Of a stretch of DNA of 25,694 nt, positions 1 through 16,142 are shown piece by piece. A model generated the notes under the pieces. It saw only the letters and a program-made list of their open reading frames with translations. It was not told the origin of the DNA and made no database searches. Numbering within the stretch: position 1 is the stretch's first letter; each line of letters opens with the position of its first letter. This DNA is from a virus. The position numbers and the translations under genes were made by a program. The DNA lies in IMG/VR virus record IMGVR_UViG_3300037540_000014, positions 1-25,694 of that record, one strand, 5' to 3'.

Positions 1-47
1 CAGACTGTATCGAGCTGGGCACGTGAAGCGTCTCCGAATGATGGCAT
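1..47 (-). CDS. Probable endolysin (peptidase M15-like), N-terminal 15 codons only
   Basis: An ATG at position 47 overlaps the TAA stop of the giant gene (TAATG). It is preceded by a strong GGAGG (plus-strand 54-58) with a 6-nt spacer. The readable product is MPSFGDASRAQLDTV, then the window ends. From memory, the pattern 'MP-x-F-G-x-x-S-x-x-x-L-x-T-V' matches the N-terminus of phage M15-family peptidases (D-Ala-D-Ala carboxypeptidase or L-Ala-D-Glu endopeptidase endolysins), which usually continue 'HPDLQ' and cut the peptide crosslinks of peptidoglycan. The catalytic Zn ligands lie outside the window, so activity cannot be judged. A lysis gene directly after an internal virion protein gene fits late-gene order in podoviruses. 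The start codon is secure; the family call rests on 15 residues. Confidence 0.6.
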   Translation of the reverse strand, partial: MPSFGDASRAQLDTV

Positions 48-3000
48 TAGGTGCCTCCAGTTTTTGCGAGCGTCTGCAACGCAGTGCCACTCAGGTCTTC
101 GTCAATCATCCTCAGAAGCTCTGCTGTTACTGGTGACTCTTCCTTCAGGCGCATCTGGTATGCCACCGAGTCATCAACGCCAAAGTTGTCGATCAGGTCA
201 ATGACATCTTCCATAGTCACATCAGCTTCACCATCTGGGTTCAGCTTTCCACCGGGGCGCAGCTCGTAGGCTTTCCTGAAGATCGTGTTGCGGCGCTTTT
301 CCAGCTCATCGATTCTTTGTTGCTTTTGCTCTGGCGTGTATCGCACTTCACCCCTCGCATCTTCGTCGGGTGTCGGCTGATAGATGCTGATCTGCATGAT
401 CGCTTTATTCAGGTCTTGAATCGCCTCTCGTGCCTTCTCCAGCGGCTTACCTATCTTGATGTACGGCAGCTCTTCGGCCTTTGTCTCCACATAGCGTTCA
501 CGCTGCTTCGTCGTTTCCAAAAACCTCAGCGAACCCTGAACCGCAGTCACCTTATCCAGCAGCCTGTACACCTCGCGCTCGTACTTGGTGCGGCGAGGTG
601 GGTTGTCGCCACGATCAAAGCTGCCACGAACAGGCCAGTCCTGAGCCTCCCACTTCGGTGGCAGCGGGTAGTCCATCATGGAGCGGGTCACTGCGTCCGC
701 AGCCATCAGCATGTACTTGCCGAACGTGCCAGTGTATCCGAGGTACAGGTGCTCAAGATGCTTGGGCGATCGCAGCTTGCCCAGACCAAAGGCATCCATG
801 CCCTGCGGCAATGCGCGAGCAAGCTCGATCATCGAAGGGCTAGTCGTATAGCTGTACTGCTCTGGCGGCATCCTCTGCTCTTGATAGAAGCTGGTGATTG
901 GGCGCTGCCTGAACGTGTCGTAATTGAACCCCATCTCAACAATAGGCATAACAGCGTGTGGCACGATGTTCATTGCGAACGTCTGCCCCATCATGTGAGC
1001 AAAGCCTCTCAGCAATTCGATGTCTGCATCACTTGCATCACTCAGGTATGCCTCAGTAAACATCTCAGGGATCGTGTTGAAGATTGCACCAACCTCAAAC
1101 GCCTTCGGCATTCTGTAGTGCTCTTCGCCAATCCAGAAGTGGTGATAGGAGTGCCTGTCCCACATCTCCAAATCTTTATAGCGCTCGTCATCACGGAACT
1201 GCATGTATAGGACCCACCCAGCAAGACCAAGTATTGCGCCCTTGATAGCAAACGCCTTCGGGTTCTCGTGAGCTGCCTTACCGAGTCGGTACAGGCCCTG
1301 CATCCGTGCGTTCATGAACGGCACGGTCGCCACAATAAATCTGATGTGTCCGTAGTCGCCGCCCATGGAAAAGTCCATCGAGTCCTTTGCCTCGAACACT
1401 GCCTGCTTCTTCGACTTACCAGCACGAATTGCTGCGTGGTAAATCGCGATTCTGTTGGCATTCTCAGAGGCGCTGGTGACGTGCCTCCATGCACGATACA
1501 GTTTGAACGGACTATCGAGAACGGTATTCGATATGTTCTGATCCTTGGTCACCCTGCGCAACAAACGCTTGGTTGCATTTGGGTCGTGCTGGGTCAGGTA
1601 GCCGTTCTCAAAAGCAGCACCAGCCCCAGTCAGAATCTGCATAGTCTCGCTTTCTACGAGTGCCTCGGCAAAACCACTCAGCGCACCACCAATCGGAACC
1701 ACCATGTCGCGACTGATGACAAATGCGTTGGCAGTATCACGAACAAGGTTACGAGCCACGAAGCCCGGATCAATTGTGATCCAGTCGGTGAACAACCGTT
1801 TCGGCCCGGTAAGCACCCCGATCCATGGGAAGAGATTATCCAGCCGCTCGATATTGATAGCCGTCATTGATCGATACAGAAGATTATTATCGGTGTAGTA
1901 GTACTCTGGCTTACCGTTCCGCAAGATCGACATGTAGCCCTTGCCGCTCGGTGCCTGCGGAGCAAACATCTTGCGCATTCCCTCGAACGTCTCAGGAGGA
2001 ATGTTATTGAGAGGGATGCCAGCTTTCTCCAGCAGGGCCTTCAGCTGACTGGCTGGAATCATGTGAGCTTTCCAGTCGTAACCAACCTTGACTATGGTGC
2101 CGGTGCCAAGCAGTGCATCAACGGCATTTGTTGCCGCATAGTTCTTCACGGCAGAGTCCATCATGTTGGTCGTTGCCATAAAGATGTTGGTGAGCACGTC
2201 ACCGATAGGACCTTCCTTGCCGCTCAGCCTGCGAATCGGTGAGCGCTGGTTAGCAATACCCACCTCTTTGTTCGACGGACCAATAAGCCTGTCATCAACT
2301 ACGCGCAGGAATGGAACCCAGTCAGCGTTCTCCCAGAGCGGCCTTGTCTCGGAGTTGATGGTCCCGGCCTCTTCACAGAAGTCCAGCATGTGCTTGTTGA
2401 AGACAGCCCAGTTTTCAGCAACCGTCTTCAGGTGCGGGAACTTATCTCCAAGACGGATAGCCGCCTCGATGCCAGCTGGCTTGAACGTCTTCTCTCGACC
2501 GGCCTCTTTGACCGTGAGACCGAACTTATGAACGATAGAGTTTACCTTGCCGCCCTTATTGATGATGACTTTGGTCGCCTTATCGTGTTGCTCCTGCTTC
2601 TTCAGAGCTATTTCAGTCAATTTGTTTGCTGACGCTCTCGCCTCTGCTTCGTTCTTGAAGTCAAAGCGTTCGACCATCTCATCGATCGTGTACTGCCACT
2701 TCGAGGCAACACCAGCTTCCCGCTGACCCTCATAGCCTGTCTCCTTCCTTCGCTTTGACTGCTGCCTGTTTGCAACACGCCAGTCAAAGATGCGCCACCG
2801 GTGACCGAACTCAAGATCAGGCTTGCCGCCTTTCTTCTTCTTGCGCCAGTGCGTGGTGCCGAGAATGTGCATCAGGTATTGACGCTCCTTCTGCGACAAG
2901 CCATCAAGCTCGGCCTCAGTAAACGAGTCATAGCGTACAGCACCAATCGTCTGCCCAACCTCGCCACGATCCCACTTGACCAGCATGTCCCACACCTGCT

Positions 3001-6000
3001 CGGCCTCAGTCTCCCCAGAGAAGATCGGCAGCAACTCACGAATCTCCCTGACCACGTGCGTAGTGCCAACGTCGCCATCAGCGTTGACGACCATCGCGTC
3101 CCAGCCTTCCAGCATCAAGCGCTTGGCACGATTGCCCACCATGAAGTCACTCCATACGTCTGGGTCGTTCATGACCGACGCAAAGACCTCTTTCATCGAC
3201 ATGCCTTCGTTCTGAACGATGCCCTCTTTCCAGACAGGCCATCCATACTCGATCACCCCCTTCATGAGCGAGTCAAGGGATGTGCTCAGTCGAGCATCAA
3301 TGTACGGGTCTTCACTAAGCTCGGCATCAATTAACGCCTTCCTCAGCCCGTAGAACTTATCGAGGTTTCCTTGCGTCTCTCTGTCCTTCCAGCCAACTCG
3401 CCATTCACTGAAGCGGTGCCACAGGCTCTTCTTGCCCCTGCGCCCAATGTTTGACCTGAACTCCTTGAGAGCCGGGTCACGATCAGGATCATAAGCAAAC
3501 GGAGCTACAGGACCAGAGAACTCTTCACGCATCTGGTCATTGATCGGAATGAAGAATGTTTTTACGCCCCTCTTGTCGAGCGGGTAGTTTCTCTCAAGGA
3601 ACTCAGCAAGAATTTGATCGGCCTCCTTCCTGCTGTCGTAGACCGTATCGGTGACAGGACCCTGCTTCTCGCTGATGATCGCCCAGCCGTGATTGCCGCC
3701 AGTCAGTTCCTTGACCTCGATGACACCATGCTGGTCTTCGATCCGAGTGTTACGAATATCCGCATCAACGAGCGCTGGCTGACCCTCTCTCCTGTAGGCT
3801 TCCTGCGAGTTGTCGATCTTGACGTACGTCTCTTGGATATACGTGCCGTACTTCTTCAGCTCCTTGTTCCAGAAGCGAACCAGCATTTCCTCGTAGGACT
3901 GCCTTGCACCTGCCAGCTTCGGCACAGCGAATGTATCCGAATACCGATTGGAGCCACGACCAACAATGATGAACAGGTTTCCACCAGTGTCTTCCTTCCG
4001 CACCAATCCCTGTGACAGAATGGCATCACCAATAGGCGCAACCCCTGTTCCAACTGGGTCTGTGCTGGCCTGCTGATTTGTACCGAGGCTGTCCTGATCA
4101 TTATTGATCAGCCATGCAAGCTCTTCATCTGATCTGGCGAAACCAACCCACCGGTTGTCTGCCCTGCGATGCACTGCCTGCGTGGTGCCCTCTTCCGTTG
4201 TGCTGATCACATACTGCGAGGTAGGATCGACATCAACATTGTCACTTGGTCGTTCTGGCAGCGCCGGTATTGGAATCTTGCCCTTGTCCTGAAGATTGAT
4301 CTGCTGCGTAGCATCAATGCCGAGCACAGGGATCATCTTGTCGCGAGCAACAACCATTGGCCTCTTCAGCTCTGGACTGCGAATGACGAAGACTTCCTGC
4401 ACCTTCCCGCGAATCGACATTTGCTCCTTGGTCCACGTGAACCGCTCTACCGAGGTAATGTCTGACTGGTCGGCAATGGCCTCACCCTCGTAGACGATAC
4501 CTCCACGAGAGGCTGATGCGAGTCCCTGATTCCAAACAATGCCACCCATGCCGCGACGTACGGCATCAGAGATCAGGTACTTGAGAGCAATGGGTCGCCA
4601 CAACTCATCCTTGGACAGTGGGTGGTCAGGCATAACCTCGTAAGACTGCATCTTCTTCTGGAGGATCACCAACTCATTGAATAAAGCGGTCGTCTGGAGC
4701 GGCTTGCCACTGATCATGGACATTGCGTCAACGATGGTGTTCGTCACCATGTCCCAGTTCACTGGAGCAGCGTCCTTCAGGCGAGCGGCTTCTTCTACCG
4801 TAGCTTGAGCAGCGTCATTGGTGTCAGAGTCAGGTCCGTATGGCTGGCCAAACGGTGGTGTTTCGTCACCGCCACGACCCCTTGAGATGTACCAGTCTGA
4901 GATCAGCTTATCGAGCCTGTTCTTTGCGTCAGTCAGTTCGGTGAAGTAGTCAACCTCTTCATCATCAATGAAGACATCGTAGGCATCGCCAGATTCCTTC
5001 GCCATGATCCTGACTTCTACATGACCGGACGCATCACCGTCTTCATCCCACTCGCTGGGCAGGCTACCAATGACGAGCGCAGATGGCCCCTCAGCATCCC
5101 ACCTTCTGCTGATTTCGTTGTAGACATCATCCATGACCTGCTCGGTCAGAACTTCGTATTTGTATTCGTTACGAGCCTCTTGCAGCCATCGTTCGGCAGC
5201 ATCGGTGTTGGCCTCGCCGTCCTCATCTATGACAACGTGGCTGAGATATTCCTCTCCTTCTCGACTGTACTCACCATCAGCTTCTTCATCCCAGTTGACG
5301 TTGTTGAACGCCTCTTCGAGTTTCTCGCTCTCAACTTCTGGGCGAGTGTCTTCCTCGAATGAGTAGTAAGTCTGAATATCCCAGTCTCTGGTGAGGTTGT
5401 CCCCCTCGCCACTTACGTCTGCCTCTTCAAGGTTGAGATAGTCTTCCAAGAAATCATAGTCGTAGCCGCTGGTGGCGTTGCCCTCCTGATCCCTACGAGC
5501 GCGAGACAACATCTTCTCGACGTTCGCGTCTCGCTGACGCTGGCCGAAGCGTGTCACAAAGTTACCAACAAGGTCCTGAGCCTTGTCTTTCATCTTGCTG
5601 ATGTCTGCCTTTCCACCAACAATATCGATGTCGATGTACTCGCCGTTGACACTGATGTTGAACGACATCGCGGACCCCTCGATGCCAACATCAACGAGGT
5701 TCGTGGAAGCAAAGATCGCCTCAGCAACCGTGGCCGCAGCTTCGTCGTTTACTTCGCTTGCACGAGCCTGTAGGTAATTGTGTATGACGGCCTTCGGCAG
5801 GCGTATGGTCGCAGTCTCCCTGCTCTCCGTGGCACCGAGTACATCAGTAACCCCACCAGTATCACCAGTGAAAAGGTCGTATATGTCGTTCAGCGGCCTC
5901 TGGAGCATGTAGCCAGCCTGCGACAATCGGAAGTGCGTTATCCTGTCTCGCGAGAACTCATTAACGATGTGGCTCATCGCTGGCTTGTGGTTTATGGCAT

Positions 6001-9000
6001 GAACAATCCCCGGCTGATTGGTGGCATCGACAAGCCCACGAACGAACTCGGTAGCTATGTGAACGTCACTTATAGCAGCAGACACAAAGCTCGCCCCAGC
6101 CCACGTATCAAGCCGCTGGAAGCCGCGAGCATCCAGCGTGCCGCCAACAACCTTCAGCTCTTCAAGCCTGTCCGCATGGTCCCTGAGCTTTTTAGTCAAG
6201 CCCTCTAGCCGCTCCAGAACATCAGTTAGCTGCACACGCTTTTCTGCATCCCAAACTTGGTACTTTTCTTCCTGACTGAGTTGATCCCATGAGCGCTGAA
6301 ATTGTTCTTGCGACCGTCGTTGCATGTTTCCTTTCAGCGAGCCTTGTAGCTCCATACCAGCAGAGCCATCGGACAGGTTAGCAATAGGCAGGAGCAGCTC
6401 TTCAATACCCTTGCTCATGTCCTCTCCAACCTTGGTTCCAAACTTTCTTGCGACAGAGTGCATGACCCCTTGCAGCTCACGCTGTCTCCGCTCTGCACGA
6501 TCTTTTTCAATCTGCGAGGTGAACGCCTTGCGTAGCTTTTGGAAGTGGTCACTCTGTAGCTCGATCAGCGACAGGAACCTGTTTGCCATTGCCGGGTTCG
6601 GGAACGTGACACCTGATATGTCGATCCCCTCCAGCAGCTCAGAGACACCAGTGCGGATGTGCATGATGTTCGGACCATAGTGCTGATTCTGTCCGGTCAT
6701 GCCACCCTGTCTGCCCTTAGTCTTAATCAGGACAACGCGAAAATCACCGCCCTTACGACTTCCCTGTGGCGAGAACTCCGAGTACTGCCTGCTGCCATTA
6801 TAGTAGTCGAACCAACGATCCTGCTTCTCATCGTAGCCAATGTCATAGCCCAGTCGCGCTGTGCGAACCTGCTCCTGCTTAATCTGCTCCATTTCCTCAT
6901 CAGTCAGCGCATCAACCTCTTCAGGTGTCAGCTTGCCGAACACCCGCTCCTGAGCTTCTGTCAAGGAGATGCCTTGGTTGGAGCCAGTCTCTTCAACGTA
7001 AACATCGAATGAGCTATCCGAGGCAAGGTGCGCCCTCATCAGGTCCTTGCTGATGTTCGTCTTCTTCGGGTTAATCTTCTGCTGCATAATCTCGGCTATG
7101 CGAGCACGCATCAGCTCAACCGAAACCTTATTGCGAACTGGTCTGGCGTTTTCGTTTCCGTATCTCGGCAACGGACCAGCCATGTACATGTCGTCCATGG
7201 CCTTGTAGATGCCGTCAAGTTCCTGCGCGACAGGAGCAGGCACCACACCTCGATACCAGTTAGTGTCGATCACGCCATTGTTGATGTGGTCAGCCCATAG
7301 GGATTGGAGGTCTCCGTAAGTAACGTCACGAAGGAACTGCCATTCACCAGTGCGTGACAGCCCTGTCAGCTCCAACTCAAGTTTCGACAGGCCCAGCCCA
7401 CCATCAGCGATAGGTTTAGCTGCCCGGTCGAATGCAGCCTGCCACTGCCCCGGAGTGCCACGCTCTGGGAACAGCGGCATCTCTTCTGGAATGGACTCCA
7501 CGCTGACGTTCTGGTCTTTGGCCCGACGCTTACGCTCACCCTTGGACAGCTTCTGCTTGCCGCTATCAACAGCAACACGCACGTTGCTGGTGAAGATATT
7601 GGCGTTGCGCATGAACGGATGAACTGTGCTGCCACCGGCTGCTCGCCACTTAAAGTCCTTCTCGCTCTTGAGGAAGTCTTGTGACCTTTGAAGCATTTGC
7701 TGCACGCGACTGTCGTTCCAGAACTTAGCTTTTTCTTCACTGATAGGAATGTAGTTGCGCCGCCTCAGAAGACCTCTGATGTAATCAATGAATCGCCGCC
7801 AAACACTCTTCTGCTTCTTGTTCATCACCAGCTGACCGGACTCAAGCTCGCCAGCGATGTAAGCGAACATCTCTTCACCAATGAGCTGCTTGTGCTCTGG
7901 GATGCTCTTGTCGAGGCCGATACCTGCTGCTGATGTCAGACGGTTGGCGTAGTAGTCAGCAAGGCGAGGGAACGCATCAACGAGTTCTGACACGTGCTCG
8001 CGCAGCGCAAGCTCATCACCAAACGCGCCACGCACACCGTAGTGACCGACCATCTCATGGACCATGACTTCAGTGAGTTCCTGATCGAAGTTGGTCTTGT
8101 CGAGATTCTGAACGAACACATAGATGCCGTTCTCAGGATTGACATGATCCATGTAACCGCGAACACCGCGCATGGTGCCGCCGCCAAGCTCTGCCCTGAT
8201 CTGATCAATGATGTGCGGGGCCTCAGCCTTGAGCTGCTGCATATCCCGAACGACATTGATCTTCGGATGGTTCGGGAACTGGAGAGCGAGACGAGATGCC
8301 TCAACGAGGGCGCGAATGTAGTCCTGCGTTGACGCTGGCTCAAGGTTCGGAACAAACTCAACCGGTCTGGCAGGCTGCTTGTAAATCTGGCTCTCGTCCA
8401 TGTACCACGGCAGTGGCGCAGAATAGTCCACATAGTCTTGATCAAGATCGGCATACCAGTCGCCATCACTATTACCAATGTGACCAATGCCAACATCAGA
8501 GAGAGTCTGCGGGAACGACTCTCGACCCGGCTGTGCGTATTCGGCATCACCAGTGATCCATGCGAGGTCAGCAGGCTTCGTGAACTTATCAACGATCAGC
8601 CAGTTCTTGTCTGGGTTGAACTTGAAGATTTTGCCCTGCACTGAAACGTACATGCGAGGTCTACCACGGTTCCGCGACATAGCCCTGACCAATCCAAAGG
8701 TCGCACCGTCAGGCGTTAGGACCTCAACGATGTCGCCCTTCTTGACTTTGTTCCTAATCTGGTTCCACGATCCGGGCAGCTTCGCATCAGGGTCCAGCTC
8801 AGCGTCAAACGCAAACATGCCAAGCCTGTATGCCTTCTGCACCCTTCCAACATTGCCACGATCAAGGTTGAGCTTCTCTGCTATTTGCCTTTGAGTGAAG
8901 CCGCGATTGGTCATCGAGACCACTTGCTGGCGAACCTCAGACGGAGTGCTCACGCCTGTTCTGACGTTCTTATCCAAAAGACCGCGACTCTTCGCCTTCT

Positions 9001-12000
9001 TCCGAAGTTTAGCCACAGCATCTTTCGTTTTGCCAAGCGCTGTCGCTATTTCCTGTCGAGTCTTACCCTGATTAAATAGGTTCGCGTACTCAGCAACAGA
9101 TGCAGCCTCCCTTAGCTTCCTGATATTTGGAAGCCCAGCGACTTTGACCTCTCGCTCAACAGTGCCTACAGAGACATCAAGCTCATTTGCTATCTCCGTA
9201 TTGGTCGCGCCATCAATGCGCATGTTAGCAATCTTCTTGAGCCTTGCCTTGCGAGAGCCTGCTACCTTTTTCAGGGAGTCGATTTTGCGAGCTGACTCAG
9301 TACGAGCAAGCTCAACAACTTGGTCAGCAAGGGATGTCGATGCTGGGAAGTCTCCAGCCTGACTATATTCTCCAGACTCCTTCACCTCGCTCGTTCCACG
9401 CACTGCATCAGGTCGCCTCCGACCTAGCGCCTCACTCAGAACATCAGCCGCATCGTAGAACTCAGCAGTAGCGCTCCTTGACCCGCTAAAGAGCGCGTCA
9501 TCAGCAATCATCTGGTCAAGCTGAGCCTCTACATCTGGGCTAACGACTTCGCCCCGCTGGAACAGCCCCTTCTGTGACTTCACCCGGTACGTGGCAGGCT
9601 CACCCTTACGCTTCGCCGTCACACCGCGCTGTATGCGCTCGCGCTTCATATCGACACCCTGAGCATCGGCCTGCTCATAGTTGTCGCCCTTGCCCCACGT
9701 GATCTGCGGAGTGATCTCATCATTGCCAGCAGCGATTGGTGTTTTCGCCAGCTTCTTGGCTGCGGCTTGCAATGCCTTCTCAACTGCCTCCTGACTCTGA
9801 CCGGCAACAGCAAACTCATCGCCACCCATGCGGTAAACCTCAACACCATCCTGCTCATTGAGCACGTCTGAGACAGCCGTCAGCAGACGATCGCCAGCAG
9901 CATGTGTCATGTTGTCATTGACCCACTTCATGGAGTCCACGTCCACAGCAGCGACCGCTGGCAGGGCATTGTCGATCTGATTCGGGGTATCGCCTTCCTT
10001 AACGTCAATATGTTCTTGTCGCTCATTGAACGCACGACGGTTCTGCACCTCGGTAAGCGGATCAGTGTACAGCAGCTGTTCACGCTGCTGAGGACCACCA
10101 GCATCCACGGCCTCTCGTACAACAGCGCCTTCCCTACCACGTCGTTCTGGTCCGGTGTAGCCACCCTCGATGCGGCTACGCAGGCCACGAGCCTGACGGT
10201 TCAGCTCCTTGGTGGCACGCTTACCCTTTGGCAGGATAATGATGGAGCCATCTTTCTTGAGCTTCGCGTAGCCCTCCTTGATCAGCTCTGCTTCCTGCTC
10301 GGCACCTATAGCCTCCATGTTCTGGACTGACTCGATAGACGAACTCAGGCGCTCGATGTCTTCGAGCTTGATGACGCTTTCGTTGACCCTGCGCTGAAGG
10401 TCGGCGCGATCAGATAGGACACGACGCTCTTCTTCCTGAAGTTCAGCTGCCGTTGTTCTCTTTGACTCGGCAACCGCTATATCAGACTTCATTGCGTTGG
10501 CACGCATGACCAGACGGTTGAGCATTTTTATCTCAGTCTCTGCCGTCTTCGTTGGTCCCTGCTTCAGGAGAAAGGCTCGCATAGGAGCCTCGGCATCAAG
10601 GATTGCCTGAGACTCTTTGCGCTGTAGCGTCTCCAGTTGTCGCAGGTCATGCAGCCTATCCTTCGGTGTCGAGTTGGCAACATACTCAGGATCAGTGATG
10701 TGCGCCTCGAACCTGAAACGCTCGTTCGTCGCCTTCTTGAACTTCACTGCTGCGCGAGCGGCATCGACATGTTCCTTGTCAACGCCAACCGGCGTGCTTG
10801 GAGACATGGACCCATACATGCCAATAGGCCCCATTGTGATAGCCGCAGTCAGGCCGGTTTCCCAGTACCTGTTCGGATCATCATAGATTGGGTTGTCAGG
10901 ATCGATAGGACGAACCGCTGCCTCTGTGTACATCAACTCCATGATTTCCTGACCAGACTCCTGAACCATCTCGCCGCCAGCACCAACGGACAGTCGTGTT
11001 GCAGCGCTCTTGTCTATCAGCCTGCCAGCAGCGCTCTTCGCGAACCTGCTGCTCATGGGCGCACCAGTAATCATGGTAACTACAGCAGCAGAGGTCGCTG
11101 CCTTGGTGGAGGCATCCTGAATGATGATCTGCTTGGACGCTTCAGGGGTAAGCCCACCCTCGCGCAGCGCCTGATACATGGCGTGCTTGTCCCATGCCTC
11201 CTGCGGTATTTGGTTCATGATCTCGCGGGTCTCATTCTCAAGATGAGTCGCTACCAGCAAGCCTTCAGAACCACCACCAAACAACATACCCGCTCTGGAT
11301 GCCGCCTTCTCGCGAGCCGTGTTCATTGCTGATGCTGTCAGTCCATACGACCCCTGCGCAGCTTTACGCGAGAAGTATCGACCAACATTACGGGTAAGCC
11401 CTATCGTCGCCCCCATTTCTGGCAACTGCTCGATGCCTTGCAAGATCAGAGACTCTGGATTGGCAACCTTTGACTCAGGGTGCGTCCACATCTCTTTTTC
11501 TGTGAGCAGCTTACGAAGCGTTATCTCTTCACCCGGCTTGAACAGCGAGTACTCGCGCTCCGCTTCCTGCTCTTCGTCGCTGAACTTCTTGCGAACATTC
11601 TCAGTAAACTCTGACGCAATCTGCGCAGGGGTCTTGCCTGTCTTCTTGCCAACCATTGGCAAAATGAAATGCTCGTACAGACTTGGCGATTTTTCAGCAT
11701 CCGACTTCCAGTTGCGAAGGTCCATTGATGCGCCGGGGTAGGCAGGTGCAACCTCACCCTCGTCATACTGGATGCCCGGAACCACGACCTCACCAGTTTC
11801 TGGATTACGAACCTCTGGCTGGAATGCCTCACGCCCACCAAGCGCACCACGCGGATCGTCAGCGCCGAAGCCAACGAGCGGAGCGCCATGAGTCCATGCG
11901 CTGCCAGCCCTTGCCAGCAACCGAGAGCCAAACTCCTTGCGTTCCTCCCACCACTCATCACCCTTGATACGATCGAACTCTTGCTCGTAATCAGGGTTCT

Positions 12001-12835
12001 GTTTGATGAGGGCCATGACTTCGTTTGCTGGCGCAAGTCCGGGGTTCTTCACGAACCTGTGGTCTTTGCCGTACCGCTCAGTAAGCGAATCGGTGATGCG
12101 CTTCTGCTCTTGCTCTGGCAGACCATTGTCAGATGTCAGCAGGAACTGCTGGAAATTGTTCCGCTTCATTATCTCGGCTTCTTTGTTCTGCAAAGAAGCC
12201 GCAGTGCCTCTGGTCGAGCCACCAGCAAGAACACCGAGCACACCACCAGTGGTGCTGCCCTGTTTGTCAATTCGATCCATGGTCTCAGGCGACATGGCCG
12301 TCCAGCGAACCTTTCCGGTCTCAGGGTCAACGATCATCTGCTGACCCATTGAGTTCACCATGCTTGCGCCATACCGGGTATTGGTGTTGCTGCTGATGAA
12401 CTCATTCTGCTGCTGACGGTTCGGTCGGTTGGCCGGGTCTCGCGTCAGCTCCATGTCAGCATCGTACTGGGACTGCGCCAGCTCGCGCTCACGCTTCTGC
12501 TGCTGTTCACCAGCCTGCGCGTACTCTTCCTTAGTCCAAGGCTGCTCTTGAGTTGGCTTGCGCAGTGCCGGACCATCTTGACGAACACCAAGCTGCTGGC
12601 TTATTTGCTCTTCACTGGCAGGTGGAGTGAGCGCAGAAGAGTCCCAGTTAAGTGGATCAGACTCGGCACTGATCTCAGCTGATCTTTCTCCGGGCGTGTA
12701 GCCTTCAGGCAGAGCGCCAGCCGTCTTGCCCTGCTGTGCAAGCATGTCTTGAAGCTGCTGAACAGCTGTAGGGTTATTGTCAGCACGCGCACTCTCAATC
12801 GCTTGCTCCAGCTGTTCACGGGTGTAGTCTGCCAC
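47..12835 (-). CDS. Giant large polyvalent protein (4262 aa), probable ejected internal virion protein with GGDEF, HTH, zincin and LPD38-like domains
   Basis: Start GTG at 12835 with AGGA 6 nt upstream, 16 nt after the preceding gene. Domain order by residue: 1-36 helical segment; about 470-690 Gly/Ala-rich hydrophobic helices; 690-890 coiled coil; 918-1085 GGDEF domain; 1198-1341 three helix-turn-helix units; 1363-1415 SH3/KOW-like strands; 1500-1690 zincin-type peptidase with HEMVGH at 1593-1598; 1793-1850 short helical domain seen in other polyvalent proteins; 1995-2112, 2690-2790 and 2930-3116 pieces of the 'QSD' polyvalent domain; 2455-2640 very acidic; 3685-4060 LPD38-like with a hydrophobic helix at 3861-3880. 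Large polyvalent proteins are known from phages and conjugative elements and are thought to enter the host with the DNA. Position after three small structural genes and before a lysis gene fits an internal virion protein. No virion RNA polymerase or methyltransferase motifs were recognised. The reading frame is open throughout. Confidence 0.9.
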   Translation of the reverse strand: MADYTREQLEQAIESARADNNPTAVQQLQDMLAQQGKTAGALPEGYTPGERSAEISAESDPLNWDSSALTPPASEEQISQQLGVRQDGPALRKPTQEQPWTKEEYAQAGEQQQKRERELAQSQYDADMELTRDPANRPNRQQQNEFISSNTNTRYGASMVNSMGQQMIVDPETGKVRWTAMSPETMDRIDKQGSTTGGVLGVLAGGSTRGTAASLQNKEAEIMKRNNFQQFLLTSDNGLPEQEQKRITDSLTERYGKDHRFVKNPGLAPANEVMALIKQNPDYEQEFDRIKGDEWWEERKEFGSRLLARAGSAWTHGAPLVGFGADDPRGALGGREAFQPEVRNPETGEVVVPGIQYDEGEVAPAYPGASMDLRNWKSDAEKSPSLYEHFILPMVGKKTGKTPAQIASEFTENVRKKFSDEEQEAEREYSLFKPGEEITLRKLLTEKEMWTHPESKVANPESLILQGIEQLPEMGATIGLTRNVGRYFSRKAAQGSYGLTASAMNTAREKAASRAGMLFGGGSEGLLVATHLENETREIMNQIPQEAWDKHAMYQALREGGLTPEASKQIIIQDASTKAATSAAVVTMITGAPMSSRFAKSAAGRLIDKSAATRLSVGAGGEMVQESGQEIMELMYTEAAVRPIDPDNPIYDDPNRYWETGLTAAITMGPIGMYGSMSPSTPVGVDKEHVDAARAAVKFKKATNERFRFEAHITDPEYVANSTPKDRLHDLRQLETLQRKESQAILDAEAPMRAFLLKQGPTKTAETEIKMLNRLVMRANAMKSDIAVAESKRTTAAELQEEERRVLSDRADLQRRVNESVIKLEDIERLSSSIESVQNMEAIGAEQEAELIKEGYAKLKKDGSIIILPKGKRATKELNRQARGLRSRIEGGYTGPERRGREGAVVREAVDAGGPQQREQLLYTDPLTEVQNRRAFNERQEHIDVKEGDTPNQIDNALPAVAAVDVDSMKWVNDNMTHAAGDRLLTAVSDVLNEQDGVEVYRMGGDEFAVAGQSQEAVEKALQAAAKKLAKTPIAAGNDEITPQITWGKGDNYEQADAQGVDMKRERIQRGVTAKRKGEPATYRVKSQKGLFQRGEVVSPDVEAQLDQMIADDALFSGSRSATAEFYDAADVLSEALGRRRPDAVRGTSEVKESGEYSQAGDFPASTSLADQVVELARTESARKIDSLKKVAGSRKARLKKIANMRIDGATNTEIANELDVSVGTVEREVKVAGLPNIRKLREAASVAEYANLFNQGKTRQEIATALGKTKDAVAKLRKKAKSRGLLDKNVRTGVSTPSEVRQQVVSMTNRGFTQRQIAEKLNLDRGNVGRVQKAYRLGMFAFDAELDPDAKLPGSWNQIRNKVKKGDIVEVLTPDGATFGLVRAMSRNRGRPRMYVSVQGKIFKFNPDKNWLIVDKFTKPADLAWITGDAEYAQPGRESFPQTLSDVGIGHIGNSDGDWYADLDQDYVDYSAPLPWYMDESQIYKQPARPVEFVPNLEPASTQDYIRALVEASRLALQFPNHPKINVVRDMQQLKAEAPHIIDQIRAELGGGTMRGVRGYMDHVNPENGIYVFVQNLDKTNFDQELTEVMVHEMVGHYGVRGAFGDELALREHVSELVDAFPRLADYYANRLTSAAGIGLDKSIPEHKQLIGEEMFAYIAGELESGQLVMNKKQKSVWRRFIDYIRGLLRRRNYIPISEEKAKFWNDSRVQQMLQRSQDFLKSEKDFKWRAAGGSTVHPFMRNANIFTSNVRVAVDSGKQKLSKGERKRRAKDQNVSVESIPEEMPLFPERGTPGQWQAAFDRAAKPIADGGLGLSKLELELTGLSRTGEWQFLRDVTYGDLQSLWADHINNGVIDTNWYRGVVPAPVAQELDGIYKAMDDMYMAGPLPRYGNENARPVRNKVSVELMRARIAEIMQQKINPKKTNISKDLMRAHLASDSSFDVYVEETGSNQGISLTEAQERVFGKLTPEEVDALTDEEMEQIKQEQVRTARLGYDIGYDEKQDRWFDYYNGSRQYSEFSPQGSRKGGDFRVVLIKTKGRQGGMTGQNQHYGPNIMHIRTGVSELLEGIDISGVTFPNPAMANRFLSLIELQSDHFQKLRKAFTSQIEKDRAERRQRELQGVMHSVARKFGTKVGEDMSKGIEELLLPIANLSDGSAGMELQGSLKGNMQRRSQEQFQRSWDQLSQEEKYQVWDAEKRVQLTDVLERLEGLTKKLRDHADRLEELKVVGGTLDARGFQRLDTWAGASFVSAAISDVHIATEFVRGLVDATNQPGIVHAINHKPAMSHIVNEFSRDRITHFRLSQAGYMLQRPLNDIYDLFTGDTGGVTDVLGATESRETATIRLPKAVIHNYLQARASEVNDEAAATVAEAIFASTNLVDVGIEGSAMSFNISVNGEYIDIDIVGGKADISKMKDKAQDLVGNFVTRFGQRQRDANVEKMLSRARRDQEGNATSGYDYDFLEDYLNLEEADVSGEGDNLTRDWDIQTYYSFEEDTRPEVESEKLEEAFNNVNWDEEADGEYSREGEEYLSHVVIDEDGEANTDAAERWLQEARNEYKYEVLTEQVMDDVYNEISRRWDAEGPSALVIGSLPSEWDEDGDASGHVEVRIMAKESGDAYDVFIDDEEVDYFTELTDAKNRLDKLISDWYISRGRGGDETPPFGQPYGPDSDTNDAAQATVEEAARLKDAAPVNWDMVTNTIVDAMSMISGKPLQTTALFNELVILQKKMQSYEVMPDHPLSKDELWRPIALKYLISDAVRRGMGGIVWNQGLASASRGGIVYEGEAIADQSDITSVERFTWTKEQMSIRGKVQEVFVIRSPELKRPMVVARDKMIPVLGIDATQQINLQDKGKIPIPALPERPSDNVDVDPTSQYVISTTEEGTTQAVHRRADNRWVGFARSDEELAWLINNDQDSLGTNQQASTDPVGTGVAPIGDAILSQGLVRKEDTGGNLFIIVGRGSNRYSDTFAVPKLAGARQSYEEMLVRFWNKELKKYGTYIQETYVKIDNSQEAYRREGQPALVDADIRNTRIEDQHGVIEVKELTGGNHGWAIISEKQGPVTDTVYDSRKEADQILAEFLERNYPLDKRGVKTFFIPINDQMREEFSGPVAPFAYDPDRDPALKEFRSNIGRRGKKSLWHRFSEWRVGWKDRETQGNLDKFYGLRKALIDAELSEDPYIDARLSTSLDSLMKGVIEYGWPVWKEGIVQNEGMSMKEVFASVMNDPDVWSDFMVGNRAKRLMLEGWDAMVVNADGDVGTTHVVREIRELLPIFSGETEAEQVWDMLVKWDRGEVGQTIGAVRYDSFTEAELDGLSQKERQYLMHILGTTHWRKKKKGGKPDLEFGHRWRIFDWRVANRQQSKRRKETGYEGQREAGVASKWQYTIDEMVERFDFKNEAEARASANKLTEIALKKQEQHDKATKVIINKGGKVNSIVHKFGLTVKEAGREKTFKPAGIEAAIRLGDKFPHLKTVAENWAVFNKHMLDFCEEAGTINSETRPLWENADWVPFLRVVDDRLIGPSNKEVGIANQRSPIRRLSGKEGPIGDVLTNIFMATTNMMDSAVKNYAATNAVDALLGTGTIVKVGYDWKAHMIPASQLKALLEKAGIPLNNIPPETFEGMRKMFAPQAPSGKGYMSILRNGKPEYYYTDNNLLYRSMTAINIERLDNLFPWIGVLTGPKRLFTDWITIDPGFVARNLVRDTANAFVISRDMVVPIGGALSGFAEALVESETMQILTGAGAAFENGYLTQHDPNATKRLLRRVTKDQNISNTVLDSPFKLYRAWRHVTSASENANRIAIYHAAIRAGKSKKQAVFEAKDSMDFSMGGDYGHIRFIVATVPFMNARMQGLYRLGKAAHENPKAFAIKGAILGLAGWVLYMQFRDDERYKDLEMWDRHSYHHFWIGEEHYRMPKAFEVGAIFNTIPEMFTEAYLSDASDADIELLRGFAHMMGQTFAMNIVPHAVMPIVEMGFNYDTFRQRPITSFYQEQRMPPEQYSYTTSPSMIELARALPQGMDAFGLGKLRSPKHLEHLYLGYTGTFGKYMLMAADAVTRSMMDYPLPPKWEAQDWPVRGSFDRGDNPPRRTKYEREVYRLLDKVTAVQGSLRFLETTKQRERYVETKAEELPYIKIGKPLEKAREAIQDLNKAIMQISIYQPTPDEDARGEVRYTPEQKQQRIDELEKRRNTIFRKAYELRPGGKLNPDGEADVTMEDVIDLIDNFGVDDSVAYQMRLKEESPVTAELLRMIDEDLSGTALQTLAKTGGT
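54..58 (-). promoter_or_regulatory. Shine-Dalgarno site of the putative endolysin
   Basis: GGAGG on the minus strand, 6 nt upstream of the ATG at 47 and inside the last codons of the giant gene. This near-ideal ribosome binding site, together with the TAATG overlap, is the main reason to call a new gene at the window edge. Confidence 0.8.
656..1783 (-). other. LPD38-like C-terminal domain of the giant protein (residues ~3685-4060)
   Basis: ITIDPGFVARNLVRDTANAF (3686-3705), SENANRIAIYHAAIRAGKSK (3790-3809) and MDFSMGGDYGHIRFIVATVP (3820-3839) match, from memory, the 'DP.F..RN..RD', 'E...R.A.Y..A...G.S...A' and 'DFS..G......PF.N' pattern of large polyvalent protein-associated domain 38. A hydrophobic helix, AFAIKGAILGLAGWVLYMQF, covers 3861-3880. 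The domain is common at the C-terminus of giant phage internal proteins; its biochemical role is unknown. Confidence 0.65.
3488..4768 (-). other. Second and third parts of the split 'QSD' polyvalent domain (residues 2690-3116)
   Basis: PDHPLSKDELWRPIALKYLI (2736-2755) and GMGGIVWNQG (2762-2771) correspond to the 'PF...W..L.LKR....A...G.D.IAWT.G' block that normally follows the QSD motif in polyvalent proteins. KTFFIPINDQMREEFSGPVA (3092-3111) followed by PFAYD matches the usual closing block 'I.ITPEMR..V..G.P.FAY'. Two small strand-strand-helix modules, each with a 'Y/F-x-S-x-x-E' turn (about 2873-2911 and 3038-3081), sit between or inside these blocks. Confidence 0.6.
4916..5473 (-). other. 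Strongly acidic segment of the giant protein (residues ~2455-2640)
   Basis: This stretch is very rich in Asp and Glu, with runs such as DYDFLEDYLNLEEADVSGEG and NVNWDEEADGEYSREGEEYL, and has few Lys or Arg. It lies at the end of the insertion that splits the QSD domain. Similar charge patterns occur in DNA-mimic anti-restriction proteins and in flexible acidic linkers; composition alone cannot separate these. Confidence 0.6.
6500..6853 (-). other. First part of the 'QSD' polyvalent domain of the giant protein (residues 1995-2112)
   Basis: YSEFSPQGSRKGGDFRVVLI (2018-2037), then HYGPNIMHIRTG (2052-2063), then LIELQSDHFQ (2090-2099). In other phage polyvalent proteins I recall the matching order 'Y.E...GG..YRE.LL', 'H...NI.AH.R' and 'IEEIQSDWHQ'. 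The function of that domain is not settled. Here the expected continuation does not follow directly but reappears after an insertion of about 580 residues. Confidence 0.65.
7766..8338 (-). other. Zincin-type metallopeptidase domain in the giant protein (residues ~1500-1690)
   Basis: VMVHEMVGHYGVRGAFGDEL surrounds an HExxH motif (His1593, Glu1594, His1598). About 55 residues later, GEEMFAYIAGEL (1653-1664) offers Glu1654 or Glu1655 as the third zinc ligand. This layout resembles the metallopeptidase domain described in polyvalent proteins. A basic helix (RRFIDYIRGLLRRR, 1680-1693) closes the domain. Possible substrates are the giant protein itself, other ejected proteins or host targets; nothing in the sequence chooses among them. 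Confidence 0.75.
8813..9244 (-). other. Three tandem helix-turn-helix units in the giant protein (residues 1198-1341)
   Basis: Three similar segments each read as helix, turn, recognition helix: around TNTEIANELDVSVGTVEREV (1211-1230), TRQEIATALGKTKDAVAKLR (1259-1278) and TQRQIAEKLNLDRGNVGRVQ (1314-1333). Each has the 'T-x-x-E/Q-I-A-x-x-L' core typical of resolvase, sigma-4 or LuxR-like HTH folds. They are spaced roughly 50 residues apart, which suggests internal duplication. DNA binding is the likely role. Whether the target is phage DNA (packaging or ejection) or host DNA is not shown. Confidence 0.75.
9581..10084 (-). other. GGDEF (diguanylate cyclase-type) domain within the giant protein (residues 918-1085)
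   Basis: The signature blocks of GGDEF domains appear in the right order and spacing. TDPLTEVQNRRAF (924-936) matches the entry motif. DVDSMKWVND (965-974) supplies the metal-ligand Asp965 and guanine-contact Asn973. HAAGD (978-982) supplies Asp982. RMGGDEF (1002-1008) is an intact active-site loop. The C-terminal part (about 1040-1085) is shortened and less typical. There is no RxxD inhibitory site just before GGDEF. By known family chemistry this domain would condense two GTP into c-di-GMP. The residues permit activity, but the degenerate C-terminus could mean a nucleotide-binding role only. Confidence 0.85.
10766..11428 (-). other. Gly/Ala-rich hydrophobic helical region of the giant protein (residues ~470-690)
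   Basis: Several hydrophobic, Gly/Ala-rich stretches occur here, for example around residues 513-530, 577-593 and 660-678, separated by charged amphipathic segments. Such regions are common in phage internal proteins that contact membranes during DNA ejection. Membrane contact is inferred from composition only; no single stretch is a textbook transmembrane helix. Confidence 0.45.
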
Positions 12836-12851
12836 CGATCATCCTCACTTA

Positions 12852-13751
12852 TTACGGGAGATAGTCTTCTGCCGGTCTGGTGCTTTCCAGAGCGCCAGAG
12901 CCAAGACTTCCACGTGCCTTTAGCCGCTCATTGGTTATGACTTTCGCATACGCCGCCTCCTGACTTGGAGTCATCTTGTGAAGCGCAACGTCAGGCGTTT
13001 GCGGGTTGTCATCATGATCAATCATGACCGCTTCGTCATCAGTGAATGGTGGGTCGGCCTTAGCCTTGGCTACCATCTGTCCAACATCCTCTGACACTAT
13101 GTCGAACACCTGACCCTCAGACTTAGCCCCTGAGATTCTCTCAGTGATCCACTTGTCGGTCTTGCCCTGACTGCGATAGAAGTCGATAAGGAAAGCGTCT
13201 TTGAGATTGCCCCCACCAGAAGCAGCGTGCTTCACGTAAGCGTCGGCCCTTTGCTTCGCGGCCTCTGCCGTCATCGTGCCTGCATCAGCCTTCTGCTTCG
13301 CGAGCTGGTTCTCGATGATCTGCTGCGCCTTGGCCTCTTCCTTCTCCTGCGCTGCCGTCTGACGGCCCTGATGCCCTGCCAACGCACCAAGTCCAGCCTC
13401 ACCTGCGGCGGCACCAAGCCCCTTGTCGGAATTCGCCATCATCATGCCGCCCCATTGAAACACGAACATGCCAAGCTCCTGCCGGGTCATGCCGCCCATA
13501 AAGCTGGTGACTTGCTCTGTCTTGTCTTCACGAGCCTTGGTTGCAGGATCGTCCTTACCACGCTCCCAGAACTCTTTGCCCTTGCTGACCATCCTGCCAA
13601 TGAAGTTCTTCTTGTCTTCAGGTGAATCCGCAACAGGCTCTGGCTTCGTAACGACCTCTGGCTCTGGATTCGCCTCTACCGCTTGCTGTTGTGGCCCAGT
13701 AAGTGCGCCTGTCTGGTTGTTGTCGTCCTGCTGAAGTGCGCCTGTGGTCAT
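12852..13751 (-). CDS. Putative internal or structural virion protein, 299 aa
   Basis: Unrecognised by function. The ATG overlaps the stop of the upstream gene (ATGA) and has a strong GGAGG 9 nt upstream (13761-13765). The first ~80 residues are polar and Pro/Glu-rich (likely disordered). Residues 84-126 are hydrophobic and Gly/Met/Ala-rich (for example FMGGMTRQELGMFVFQWGGM). Residues 130-175 form a charged Ala/Gln/Lys-rich helix, probably coiled coil. No signal peptide or catalytic motif is visible. A Gly/Ala-rich hydrophobic core flanked by helices resembles small internal or ejection proteins of podoviruses. Its place directly before the giant gene suggests co-packaging or co-ejection; this is inference. 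Confidence 0.85.
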   Translation of the reverse strand: MTTGALQQDDNNQTGALTGPQQQAVEANPEPEVVTKPEPVADSPEDKKNFIGRMVSKGKEFWERGKDDPATKAREDKTEQVTSFMGGMTRQELGMFVFQWGGMMMANSDKGLGAAAGEAGLGALAGHQGRQTAAQEKEEAKAQQIIENQLAKQKADAGTMTAEAAKQRADAYVKHAASGGGNLKDAFLIDFYRSQGKTDKWITERISGAKSEGQVFDIVSEDVGQMVAKAKADPPFTDDEAVMIDHDDNPQTPDVALHKMTPSQEAAYAKVITNERLKARGSLGSGALESTRPAEDYLP

Positions 13752-14407
13752 TTCTTTTTTCCTCCGAAGAGCCTGTCATAAACACTACCGGCTATTGCCT
13801 CGATGTCGGCCTCACTCTCAACGCCCTGCACATTCATCATCATTTGCATCATGCGAGTTGCGCCATCCTCATCGGAAATCGTGCCATTATTGATTTCCTT
13901 CCTTGTGAGGTTGGCGAACGGCGATACAATGGCCTGTTCTATTAACTCATCCTGATCGGCCTTGCTTTTAATCCCCATCGCTTCATTAAGCTGGTTGCCA
14001 GCACGCCTTACCTCTTCCGGGTCCATCTTGGCAAACTCACCAGTCTTGCCGCTGGCAGCATTCAATGCCCTACCCATAAATTGCATGGCCTTCTTCGATC
14101 CCAGTTTTTCCATGCTGCTATTCCAATACTCCATGGGGGTGCCACGGTCCTGTACTAGATCAAGATTGGCACCCGCACCGCCCTGCCGTTCGTTTGCTCC
14201 GTCTTGGGACAGGGGTGCGCCCTCAACTTGTGCGTTGCCACCGGGAGGTGGTGCGGGTGCCAAAGCTGGTCCACCTGATTGCATTGGTGGTATCGCGCCA
14301 GTGCCAACACCACCCGTTACTGATGGTGGGGCACCTGTAAGAGCTGGTGATGCTGCGTTCGTTTGTGTCGGCATGGCATTTATCAGTTCGTCCTGTTTGC
14401 CAATCAT
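13748..14407 (-). CDS. Putative structural protein with Pro/Gly-rich N-terminus, 219 aa
   Basis: Unrecognised. The ATG at 14407 overlaps the previous stop (ATGA); GGAGA lies 7 nt upstream. Residues 16-80 are rich in Pro, Gly and Ala (for example PALAPAPPPGGNAQVEG) and probably disordered. Residues 90-215 are mostly helical, with a Met-rich patch RMMQMMMNVQG (185-195), and the protein ends GGKKK. There are no transmembrane segments and no enzyme motif. It is tightly coupled on both sides to other structural-looking genes, so it is likely a minor virion or internal core protein, possibly an assembly partner of the 299-aa and giant proteins. Confidence 0.85.
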   Translation of the reverse strand: MIGKQDELINAMPTQTNAASPALTGAPPSVTGGVGTGAIPPMQSGGPALAPAPPPGGNAQVEGAPLSQDGANERQGGAGANLDLVQDRGTPMEYWNSSMEKLGSKKAMQFMGRALNAASGKTGEFAKMDPEEVRRAGNQLNEAMGIKSKADQDELIEQAIVSPFANLTRKEINNGTISDEDGATRMMQMMMNVQGVESEADIEAIAGSVYDRLFGGKKK

Positions 14408-15552
14408 GATTGGTCTCCAAAGAGCTTGCCGTAATCAACGAGCAAGAATCCGTCTGGACCCATCGCACTAATATCTGGGTTCTCTTGAGCAATAACGCCG
14501 AAGCTATTTCCAGCCTCACCCAAAGCTACCGCAACCGAGTTCCATGTCCACGTGTAAAACCTGCGGCCCATGAGCGTGAAAAGGTAAATGATGTTTTCTT
14601 TTAGCCTTTGGTCGCTTGGGGTGCTTCCTTCCCTGAACCAGTCAGGCGCTTCGTCTCCGCCGCCTCCGCTGTCGGCAACTGCTTTAGCTCCTTGAGTGAG
14701 AGCAAGGGATGCACCGCCCGTGTATGCCGCTGCTACCACCTGTGCGATGCCGCCAATAACTGCGGCAGCATTACCACCGCTCGTTTTGCTTTCGCCGGTC
14801 TGGGTAGTTGAGTACGACCCCTTGGTGCCCTCCAGTGCGGAGACCACGCCCATCAGCTGCTTCCAATCCCAGTCACGCTCTTCAACGAACTGCTGCCAAT
14901 CGAAGTCCAGCATTGCCTGCTGCACGTTACGGTCAGTAGCGCCAGTAGTCATGAGTGTGGAGATGTCCATCCGAGATGAGTCTTGCACCTGCCCGCCAAG
15001 CTGCTGGAACCGTCCTGCCGCTTGTAAGTCGCGTGCTCGCTCATCACCGAATATCTGAGCACCGAAGTTGTATGCGTCAGCATAGCCCTTACCGTACAGG
15101 TCTTCGATTCCTTGCAGAGTCTTCTCACGGTTCTCAGAGCGCAAGAGAGCCGCTCTGCTGCCACCGAAGGCATCCATGGATGCAGCTCTGGAGTCGAGTG
15201 CGTTCGCGCCTCTCGCGCCTTCCTCGCGTATCTCACGAGCTGCTGGGTCCAATGCGCCCTTGATATACGGGTTTATGAACCGAGACTGGTCAGCATCAGC
15301 CCATGATGTAGCGCCTCGATCAGCATACGTCTCGGCCTTGTCGTAATAAGGCTGAGCAATGCCAACATTCTCACGGGCCATCTCAACGCCCATCCGCTCA
15401 TTCTCAGACAAACCAGCAACACGATCGCCGGTATAGGCTTCGTATTGCTTCCTACCTATCCTCTGACCTATGCCTATAGCTTGCTGAGATGCGCCCTCAA
15501 CCCAGCTTGGCGGCGTGTAGGTTTGTTTCGATTTGGTTTTCTTGCTTCCCAC
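14404..15552 (-). CDS. Virion-associated protein with C-terminal S74-like module, ~382 aa
   Basis: The longest frame opens with GTG at 15579. The GTG at 15552 is preferred because AGGAG lies 8 nt upstream of it. From that start the product is 382 aa, beginning MGSKKTKSKQTYTPPSWVEG. Residues below are counted from the 15579 start. Residues 100-190 hold a pattern I know from a widespread phage family: 'NPY', then 'AFGGSRAALLRSE', then 'G..DAYNFGAQIFGDERARD'. Residues 268-305 are Gly/Ala-rich and hydrophobic. The C-terminus has PSDQRLKENI (321-330), then YTWTW, GVIAQE and VDYGKL, the core of the Peptidase_S74 or endosialidase chaperone fold in short form. S74 modules usually release themselves from trimeric tail spikes; here the host protein looks like an internal or core protein. 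Confidence 0.85.
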   Translation of the reverse strand: MGSKKTKSKQTYTPPSWVEGASQQAIGIGQRIGRKQYEAYTGDRVAGLSENERMGVEMARENVGIAQPYYDKAETYADRGATSWADADQSRFINPYIKGALDPAAREIREEGARGANALDSRAASMDAFGGSRAALLRSENREKTLQGIEDLYGKGYADAYNFGAQIFGDERARDLQAAGRFQQLGGQVQDSSRMDISTLMTTGATDRNVQQAMLDFDWQQFVEERDWDWKQLMGVVSALEGTKGSYSTTQTGESKTSGGNAAAVIGGIAQVVAAAYTGGASLALTQGAKAVADSGGGGDEAPDWFREGSTPSDQRLKENIIYLFTLMGRRFYTWTWNSVAVALGEAGNSFGVIAQENPDISAMGPDGFLLVDYGKLFGDQS

Positions 15553-16003
15553 TGGCTTCACTCCTGATGAAGTCACCACCGAGATACTGATAACCGTGAT
15601 GCTGGAATAGCTTGTCCTTCAACAAGACCTTCGCATCAGCAGCCGACACCCCGGCAACTATTGGTGCATCGTGCTCGTCAGCGTAAGCATGGGTGGCTGT
15701 CAACAGCGCCTCAAATGCCCCACCTTTCCGAAACTTCTTCTGCACATAGAGCCACTCCAAATACATGTACCACTTAGGTGACCACGGAAATTGATAGTTG
15801 GTGAGAGCCAGTGTCCCCACCAGTCTGCCGGACACGTCAGCTACTAGAACGTAGCCGTCTTCTAGGGTCCGTGTTATCCATCGAATGCCGATGGTGTGAT
15901 CGACTGGTGGGTAAGCGCTTCCTTCGTCGTGACACTCGATCAGAAGTCGAGCGATATTTGAAGTGTCTAAGGGCTTAGCCGGTCTGATCTTAATCGTGGT
16001 CAT
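15497..16003 (-). CDS. GNAT-family N-acetyltransferase, 168 aa
   Basis: The ATG at 16003 follows the stop of the small membrane protein gene by 1 nt; AGGGGG sits 4 nt upstream. The fold pattern is GNAT: IKIRPAKPLDTSNIARLL at the N-terminus, then VLVADVSGRLVGTLALTNY (strands 2-3), then YLEWLYVQKKFRKGGAFEAL, which is motif A with the acetyl-CoA-binding R/Q-x-x-G-x-G/A loop as RKGGA (92-96), and a final HHGYQYLGG strand. The family transfers acetyl from acetyl-CoA to an amine. The substrate cannot be read from the sequence. GNAT genes occur in the structural clusters of several podoviruses, where their role is unclear. The last ~20 residues extend beyond the usual fold and overlap the next gene. 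Confidence 0.85.
   Translation of the reverse strand: MTTIKIRPAKPLDTSNIARLLIECHDEGSAYPPVDHTIGIRWITRTLEDGYVLVADVSGRLVGTLALTNYQFPWSPKWYMYLEWLYVQKKFRKGGAFEALLTATHAYADEHDAPIVAGVSAADAKVLLKDKLFQHHGYQYLGGDFIRSEASGKQENQIETNLHAAKLG
15561..15565 (-). promoter_or_regulatory. Shine-Dalgarno site deciding the start of the S74-like protein gene
   Basis: AGGAG on the minus strand, 8 nt upstream of the GTG at 15552. No comparable site precedes the in-frame GTG codons at 15579 and 15576. This shortens the overlap with the acetyltransferase gene from 83 to 56 nt. Confidence 0.6.
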
Positions 16004-16135: not shown

Positions 16136-16142
16136 CTCTCCT
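16136..16142 (-). promoter_or_regulatory. Shine-Dalgarno site of the 41-aa membrane protein
   Basis: AGGAGAG on the minus strand, overlapping the TAG stop of the 1907-aa gene and 5 nt upstream of ATG 16130. It fixes the start of the small gene. Confidence 0.75.

Follow-up and report, generated by a model that had tools for sequence, protein, structure and literature searches.

The window analysed here is an entire IMG/VR virus record of 25,694 bp, which carries on its minus strand a virion operon ending in one giant gene (Table 1). The giant gene is a single open frame running from a GTG at position 12835 down to a stop at 49-47, and the GTG start is credible because TGAGGA, a ribosome-binding site, lies 6 nt 5′ of it and the preceding gene ends 17 bases before it. 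Scans of the window with Rfam, for tRNAs, and for repeats yielded nothing relevant. A sequence-only reading had described one 12.8-kb gene for a multi-domain protein combining GGDEF, tandem helix-turn-helix (HTH), zincin, split QSD, and LPD38 domains, and this description holds: the single 4262-aa frame contains all the named domains, as seen by Pfam, motif alignment, and a QSD profile. Its placement of the gene between small structural genes and a lysis gene is likewise confirmed by the cassette genes upstream and by the next gene, an M15 endolysin in relatives.

Table 1. Genes of the window and features of the giant protein, in order of position (residues are those of the giant).
Feature	Positions	Strand	Remarks
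Start of M15 endolysin gene, 15 codons (MPSFGDASRAQLDTVC)	1..47	-	overlaps the giant's stop as TAATG
Giant polyvalent protein gene	47..12835	-	4262 aa, GTG start; full-length relatives
Conserved C-terminal core, residues 3440-4190	266..2518	-	in at least 590 IMG/VR stretches and about 50 named phage records
LPD38 (PF18857), residues 3883-4069	629..1189	-	Pfam E 1.4e-30
Hydrophobic segment, residues 3862-3880	1196..1252	-	conserved in relatives' core
QSD piece 3, residues 2960-3115	3491..3958	-	GARQSYEEM..NKELKKYG..FFIPINDQMREEF
QSD piece 2, residues 2691-2800	4436..4765	-	W..IALKYLI..A...GIVWNQG
Insertion inside QSD, ~575 aa	4766..6490	-	fastest-evolving; very acidic second half (residues 2401-2700)
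QSD piece 1, residues 2005-2115	6491..6823	-	YSEF..DFRVVLI, H..NIMHIR, ELQSD
Zincin-like metallopeptidase, residues 1490-1700	7736..8368	-	HExxxH at 1593
Tandem HTH block, residues 1094-1338	8822..9556	-	three HTH units; no counterpart in three relative lineages
GGDEF (putative diguanylate cyclase) domain, residues 915-1090	9566..10093	-	Pfam, residues 923-1048, E 2.8e-11
Small-residue/hydrophobic region, residues 451-700	10736..11485	-	common to other LPD38 giants L095, L140, L142
N-terminal region, residues 1-450	11486..12835	-	44-49% identity in relatives
299-aa cassette protein	12852..13751	-	homologue in all relatives
219-aa cassette protein	13748..14407	-	
391-aa DNA ejection protein family	14404..15579	-	phrog_4287, E 8e-23; Peptidase_S74 C-terminus
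GNAT acetyltransferase gene	15497..16003	-	acetyltransferase in same slot in CRP-901, HTVC028P, BcepIL02, JC1
1907-aa fibre-like protein	16141..21864	-	Laminin_G_3
833-aa virion structural protein	21861..24362	-	phrog_3287; "stabilization protein" in relatives

Relatives and gene neighbourhood

The same protein is encoded in three independent lineages, i.e., L094/L184 (3918 aa), L183 (3945 aa), and L174 (3998 aa), which were obtained by alignment-based scans of IMG/VR and bacterial genomes, whereas the whole giant as a single-sequence query against viral contigs retrieved nothing. Identity to the window giant is 50–52% over the first ~1090 residues and 42–43% over the remainder in these lineages, and the operon order (fibre, GNAT, ejection protein of 359 or 391 aa, two small proteins, giant, and endolysin) is kept. 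Since the architecture, HTH block apart, and the neighbours recur in three independent lineages, an assembly or fusion artefact, or a chance arrangement, is ruled out. The N-terminal 895 residues of the giant have no match in named phages. The HTH block is missing from all three lineages and is skipped by the alignment, which marks it, on sequence comparison, as a movable cassette that was gained or lost, and the domain set first described would thus be partly phage-specific.

Four small cassette genes precede the giant gene, and the gene downstream in relatives encodes an M15 L-alanyl-D-glutamate endolysin (PDB 2mxz, E 1.4e-4 in L094; phrog_465, E 7e-29 in L174). In the window and in L174, the giant gene is the last of the virion operon, following a gene of the DNA-ejection family and preceding the endolysin gene. 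Several details of the cassette were observed additionally. No other cassette gene seen is as conserved as the GNAT gene, which is 84–87% identical to its relatives, compared with 42–52% for the giant; strong constraint or a recent transfer may lie behind this. In the window (12852-14407) and in L174, the 219- and 299-aa proteins are encoded by two genes, which are seemingly fused into one frame in L183:3418-4833 and L184:8576-9982. As annotated, the 391-aa ejection gene starts at a GTG that gives it an 83-bp overlap with the GNAT gene, and a later start is possible.

The contig of the L174 lineage (65 kb) was binned with a genome of Desulfuromonadales, a host link that comes from binning alone and may be wrong. 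This contig carries a terminase, a portal, and two SU10-adaptor-like proteins, which together point to a short tail, as in podoviruses; the portal came via PHROGs, the P22_portal profile having no match in the relatives. The giant of this contig (L174:9989-21994) also has, at about residue 3051, an internal RRDFLK followed by a hydrophobic stretch, a twin-arginine-like feature not seen in the other giants. A hidden twin-arginine signal peptide was rejected as chance, as such a pattern occurred in 1 of 100 giants and in 9 of 500 shuffles.

The GGDEF, HTH, zincin, and QSD domains

The GGDEF domain scores 43.9 bits against a Pfam cut-off of 23.8 and contains MGGDEF (residues 1003–1008), DxD (965–967), ND (973–974), and GD (981–982), the roles of the catalytic residues being known from PleD-type cyclases. 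The window giant and its three relative lineages, four sequences in all, do not differ at the DxD, ND, GD, and GGDEF residues, and a lysine and an arginine are conserved at positions where phosphate contacts are expected. Furthermore, the domain is among the best-conserved blocks of the chain, with 63–64% identity and a dN of about 0.31, compared with 0.39–0.40 for the C-terminal core. Given this strong constraint and the intact catalytic residues, the sequence is most simply read as that of an active diguanylate cyclase. No inhibitory RxxD I-site is present upstream of GGDEF in the window sequence; this site is optional, occurring in many but not all cyclases, and does not define the family. 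A GGDEF domain (30% identical) is also found in the LPD38 giant L164:5120-12373, which is unlike the window giant outside the core; thus, GGDEF recurs among LPD38 giants. In the block that follows GGDEF in the window giant, the HTH units span residues 1194–1338, and several Pfam HTH families match at residues 1200–1338.

The zincin motif, HEMVGH, conforms to HExxxH and lines up with HExxxH motifs of 17 further proteins. The resulting alignment comprises 18 non-redundant segments, taken from the window giant, environmental giants, and named phages; in it, HExxxH(Y/F/W/V)G is followed by a helix with a conserved Glu or EE pair in nearly all sequences, and the Glu in the downstream GEEMFAY of the window giant is a candidate for the third zinc ligand. 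The protein L136 is devoid of this downstream helix, and its HExxxH may be a chance motif match. No Pfam metallopeptidase matches the giant at E 0.1. The HExxxH variant of zincin has been reported in polyvalent proteins, for which self-processing by the zincin was also proposed (Iyer et al., 2017; PMC5512222); release of the cargo by the zincin of the window giant is speculative.

The QSD family was built from an initial consensus motif, which led to real members in three phages, to their alignment, and to a scan of IMG/VR; this consensus served as a lead only, and all statements on QSD rest on real sequences. A profile of 82 domains matches the window giant in three colinear pieces (residues 2084–2123, 2709–2777, and 2976–3029) at E 1.1e-5, compared with 0.77 for the best of 500 shuffled copies, and matches the three relative lineages at 8e-13 to 2e-15; the QSD domain of the window is a divergent one. 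At least 520 relatives were confirmed in IMG/VR. Proteins of ~720–800 aa contain the domain, Pelagibacter phage HTVC028P encodes it by a gene of its own within the ejection cassette, and roughly 8 of 80 sampled LPD38 giants carry it. No meaningful match in Pfam or NCBIfam was obtained among the members tested, none of the LPD families of Pfam is matched, the profile has no match among PDB sequences, and the sole matching PHROG is a giant of 2564 residues. One Dolichospermum phage protein (L010:11118-18281) carries four ART-PolyVal domains, two QSD copies, and an HExxxH in one chain.

The QSD domain is split at the same place, with a similar insertion length, in L094, L095, L174, and L183, and in L151 by about 300 residues. 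In the predicted model of a compact member (pLDDT 86), the split site corresponds to a long helical hairpin, and the distance between the flanking motifs is 19–112 residues in ordinary members. The insertion is the fastest-evolving part of the giant (30–31% identity with relatives), and its acidic stretch (4766-5635, residues 2401–2690) has a net charge of about -49 over residues 2401–2700, for which a role as a DNA mimic could be considered. With VIA-align, the domain-spanning matches of the compact model are mostly GNATs (Z 7–9.3 over 110–135 residues), including the KacT, AtaT, TacT, and GmvT toxins, NatD, and Naa10, and additionally the C-terminal domain of isocitrate lyase 2; the remaining rows cover the helical hairpin only. 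The best of these matches, to the acyltransferases KacT, AtaT, TacT, and NatD, reach Z 8–9 over about 126 residues. Compared with these enzymes, QSD has an inserted long helical hairpin and no sequence match, and no acetyltransferase family is among the Pfam matches listed for 47 members. We lean towards a GNAT-like fold on the strength of the model but leave QSD outside the GNAT family, since Foldseek gives no strong match (best E 0.017) and the top Z is barely above that of models without relatives. Two RimI-like GNAT families, one of them usually beside ART domains, have been described in polyvalent proteins (Iyer et al., PMC5512222).

The C-terminal core and known giant proteins

LPD38 scores 107.3 bits against a curated cut-off of 27, and it is only part of a larger conserved module, the C-terminal core, which aligns over its full length with named phages (31% identity with PTXU04 and Vibrio phage 1.232.O). 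The hydrophobic segment before LPD38 resembles a transmembrane segment in a hydropathy scan, which is weak evidence. The predicted model of the core (pLDDT 80) has 56 viral structural matches in BFVD at E ≤ 0.001 and, with Foldseek and VIA-align, no significant match among solved structures, solved ejection proteins included. In other phages, the cargo before the core differs (SNF2/MTase, InPase, ParB/MTase, or SLT), while the core and LPD38 stay. An apparent stand-alone LPD38 core of 802 aa (L147) was also observed and was not used as evidence.

The giant belongs to the phage-type polyvalent proteins, as it comprises several unrelated domains including enzymes and its gene lies among late virion genes; carriage in the virion is probable by analogy. 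Phage polyvalent proteins with GGDEF, zincin, and LPD38 were described previously (Iyer et al., 2017; PMC5512222), and the statement in the sequence-only reading that the combination could not be placed in a described protein was too strong, since these authors include a prophage giant with GGDEF plus zincin. This Acetonema longum giant carries GGDEF, SNF2, MTase, zincin, and ART in one chain. The window giant shares with such proteins its size, its many unrelated domains, the pairing of GGDEF with zincin, the phage-type-restricted LPD38, and the late-gene context; it differs from the A. longum giant in having tandem HTH units and an interrupted QSD and in lacking SNF2, MTase, and ART. The polyvalent class, the GGDEF-zincin-LPD38 theme, and the idea of self-processing are therefore already published. 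What the present analysis adds is how the domains are arranged in this giant, that its QSD is interrupted, how abundant QSD is and that its fold may be GNAT-like, and how strongly GGDEF is conserved.

Among named phages, the Bcep22-like "DarB-like" giants JC1 gp69 and BcepIL02 gp70 (4.5–4.7 kaa; LPD38 match of the latter, E 6e-36) resemble the window giant in their LPD38 C-terminus and in their slot after GNAT and virion genes. Their cargo consists of transglycosylase, methyltransferase, helicase, and LPD3 modules with no GGDEF found, and Pfam detects none of the DarB-like methyltransferase and helicase modules of BcepIL02 in the window giant. Only the C-terminus aligns with these giants (21%, E 3e-4), and it is there alone that sequence homology is clear. 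PTXU04_00025 of the Escherichia coli phage PTXU04 (2197 aa) shares the core (31% over 745 aa), an HExxxH, and the position at the end of the virion cassette, whereas it is half as long and has no GGDEF, HTH, or QSD. The virion RNA polymerase of phage N4, gp50, resembles the role proposed below, being a giant last ejection protein delivered with DNA; no T7-like RNA polymerase domain was matched in the window giant in searches of Pfam, PHROGs, and PDB sequences, and no sequence relation between the two proteins was found.

Proposed delivery with DNA and alternative readings

The order of GNAT, ejection or virion proteins, and the largest protein recurs in CRP-901, BcepIL02, and JC1, and the structural operon of MinM2 likewise ends with an LPD38 giant. 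The 4515-aa LPD38 giant gp69 of JC1 is prominent among the proteins of virions purified with CsCl, where it yielded 51 unique peptides (PMC9144972). Knockdown of PTXU04_00025 causes a large loss of plaquing, i.e., the gene is essential, and expression of this gene, among others, was reported to be toxic or to interfere (PMC11879866). Against packaging, fingerprinting of the PTXU04 virion band by band named gp7, gp10, gp11, and gp12 only, not the giant, although just four bands were assigned (PMC6563267). As a precedent, N4 gp50 is an ejected protein of ~3,500 residues for which a beads-on-a-string passage through the tail has been proposed (PMC12633501). From the cassette position, the virion presence of JC1 gp69, the essentiality of PTXU04_00025, and the N4 precedent, we infer an ejection protein with attached effectors: the giant is likely the largest of the ejection proteins, and the last, in a phage of the short-tailed podovirus type, with cargo attached at its N-terminal side; by analogy, it is probably carried in the virus head and driven into the cell before the DNA. 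The earlier suggestion of co-ejection with DNA is accordingly plausible and well supported by analogy, through the ejection-cassette position and the LPD38 giants found in virions.

The virion presence of JC1 gp69 and the essentiality of PTXU04_00025 also suggest that the C-terminal ~750 residues be read as an ejection or structural core and the rest as exchangeable cargo. The core, LPD38, and the hydrophobic segment would form a packaging, ejection, and membrane module, analogous in role to P22 gp16, T7 gp16, or N4 gp50, and the N-terminal three quarters would be carried into the cytoplasm. There, the delivered diguanylate cyclase would raise c-di-GMP at once, and the QSD, if GNAT-like in fold, may modify a host molecule; the cargo would further include a zincin and, in the window phage only, a DNA-binding HTH block. 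These putative enzyme activities are read from motifs.

The proposal that the protein is a set of early host-takeover tools tells half the story, as a conserved core occupies the slot of the largest ejection protein and plaquing depends on the relative in the E. coli phage, whereas an optional toolkit would not have to be essential. A rival reading would make the giant an accessory anti-defence or takeover toolkit packaged like DarB of phage P1, dispensable on permissive hosts and using its C-terminus for packaging only. The literature on polyvalent proteins favours conflict roles (PMC5512222), P1 DarB is packaged via a short N-terminal signal (PMC9024508), and the cargo domains differ between phages; however, the conserved part here comprises about 750 residues rather than a short tag, PTXU04_00025 is essential under standard conditions, and the giant holds the cassette position of the largest ejection protein, so that we regard a dispensable toolkit as unlikely.

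A second rival, a purely structural ejection or channel protein whose GGDEF, zincin, and QSD domains are retained as folded beads with a scaffold role and no activity, is very unlikely: the catalytic residues of GGDEF are intact in all lineages with a dN below that of the core, and the zinc-ligand residues are kept across the 18-sequence alignment, although the zincin has no Pfam match, GGDEF has no feedback I-site, and the QSD of the window is divergent. It is highly improbable that the giant is a late protein that is not ejected and acts in the producing cell, in assembly or in lysis timing. The adjoining endolysin gene overlaps it and virion presence in the window phage is argued by analogy, but the LPD38 giant that JC1 encodes in this slot is found in its virions, and one of the upstream cassette genes belongs to the DNA-ejection family.

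It is rather doubtful, if conceivable, that QSD represents a very common undescribed family of phage-injected acyltransferases with a GNAT fold, delivered here with an active diguanylate cyclase; if true, entry alone would cause a c-di-GMP pulse and acylation of host targets before any phage gene expression. In any case, QSD is an abundant phage domain unnamed in the curated libraries checked, and a diguanylate cyclase that is strongly conserved and, by its residues, catalytically intact is likely to enter the cell with the DNA. As the conserved ejection core would be separable from exchangeable cargo, the question of whether such giants are structural or effector proteins becomes testable by domain deletions.
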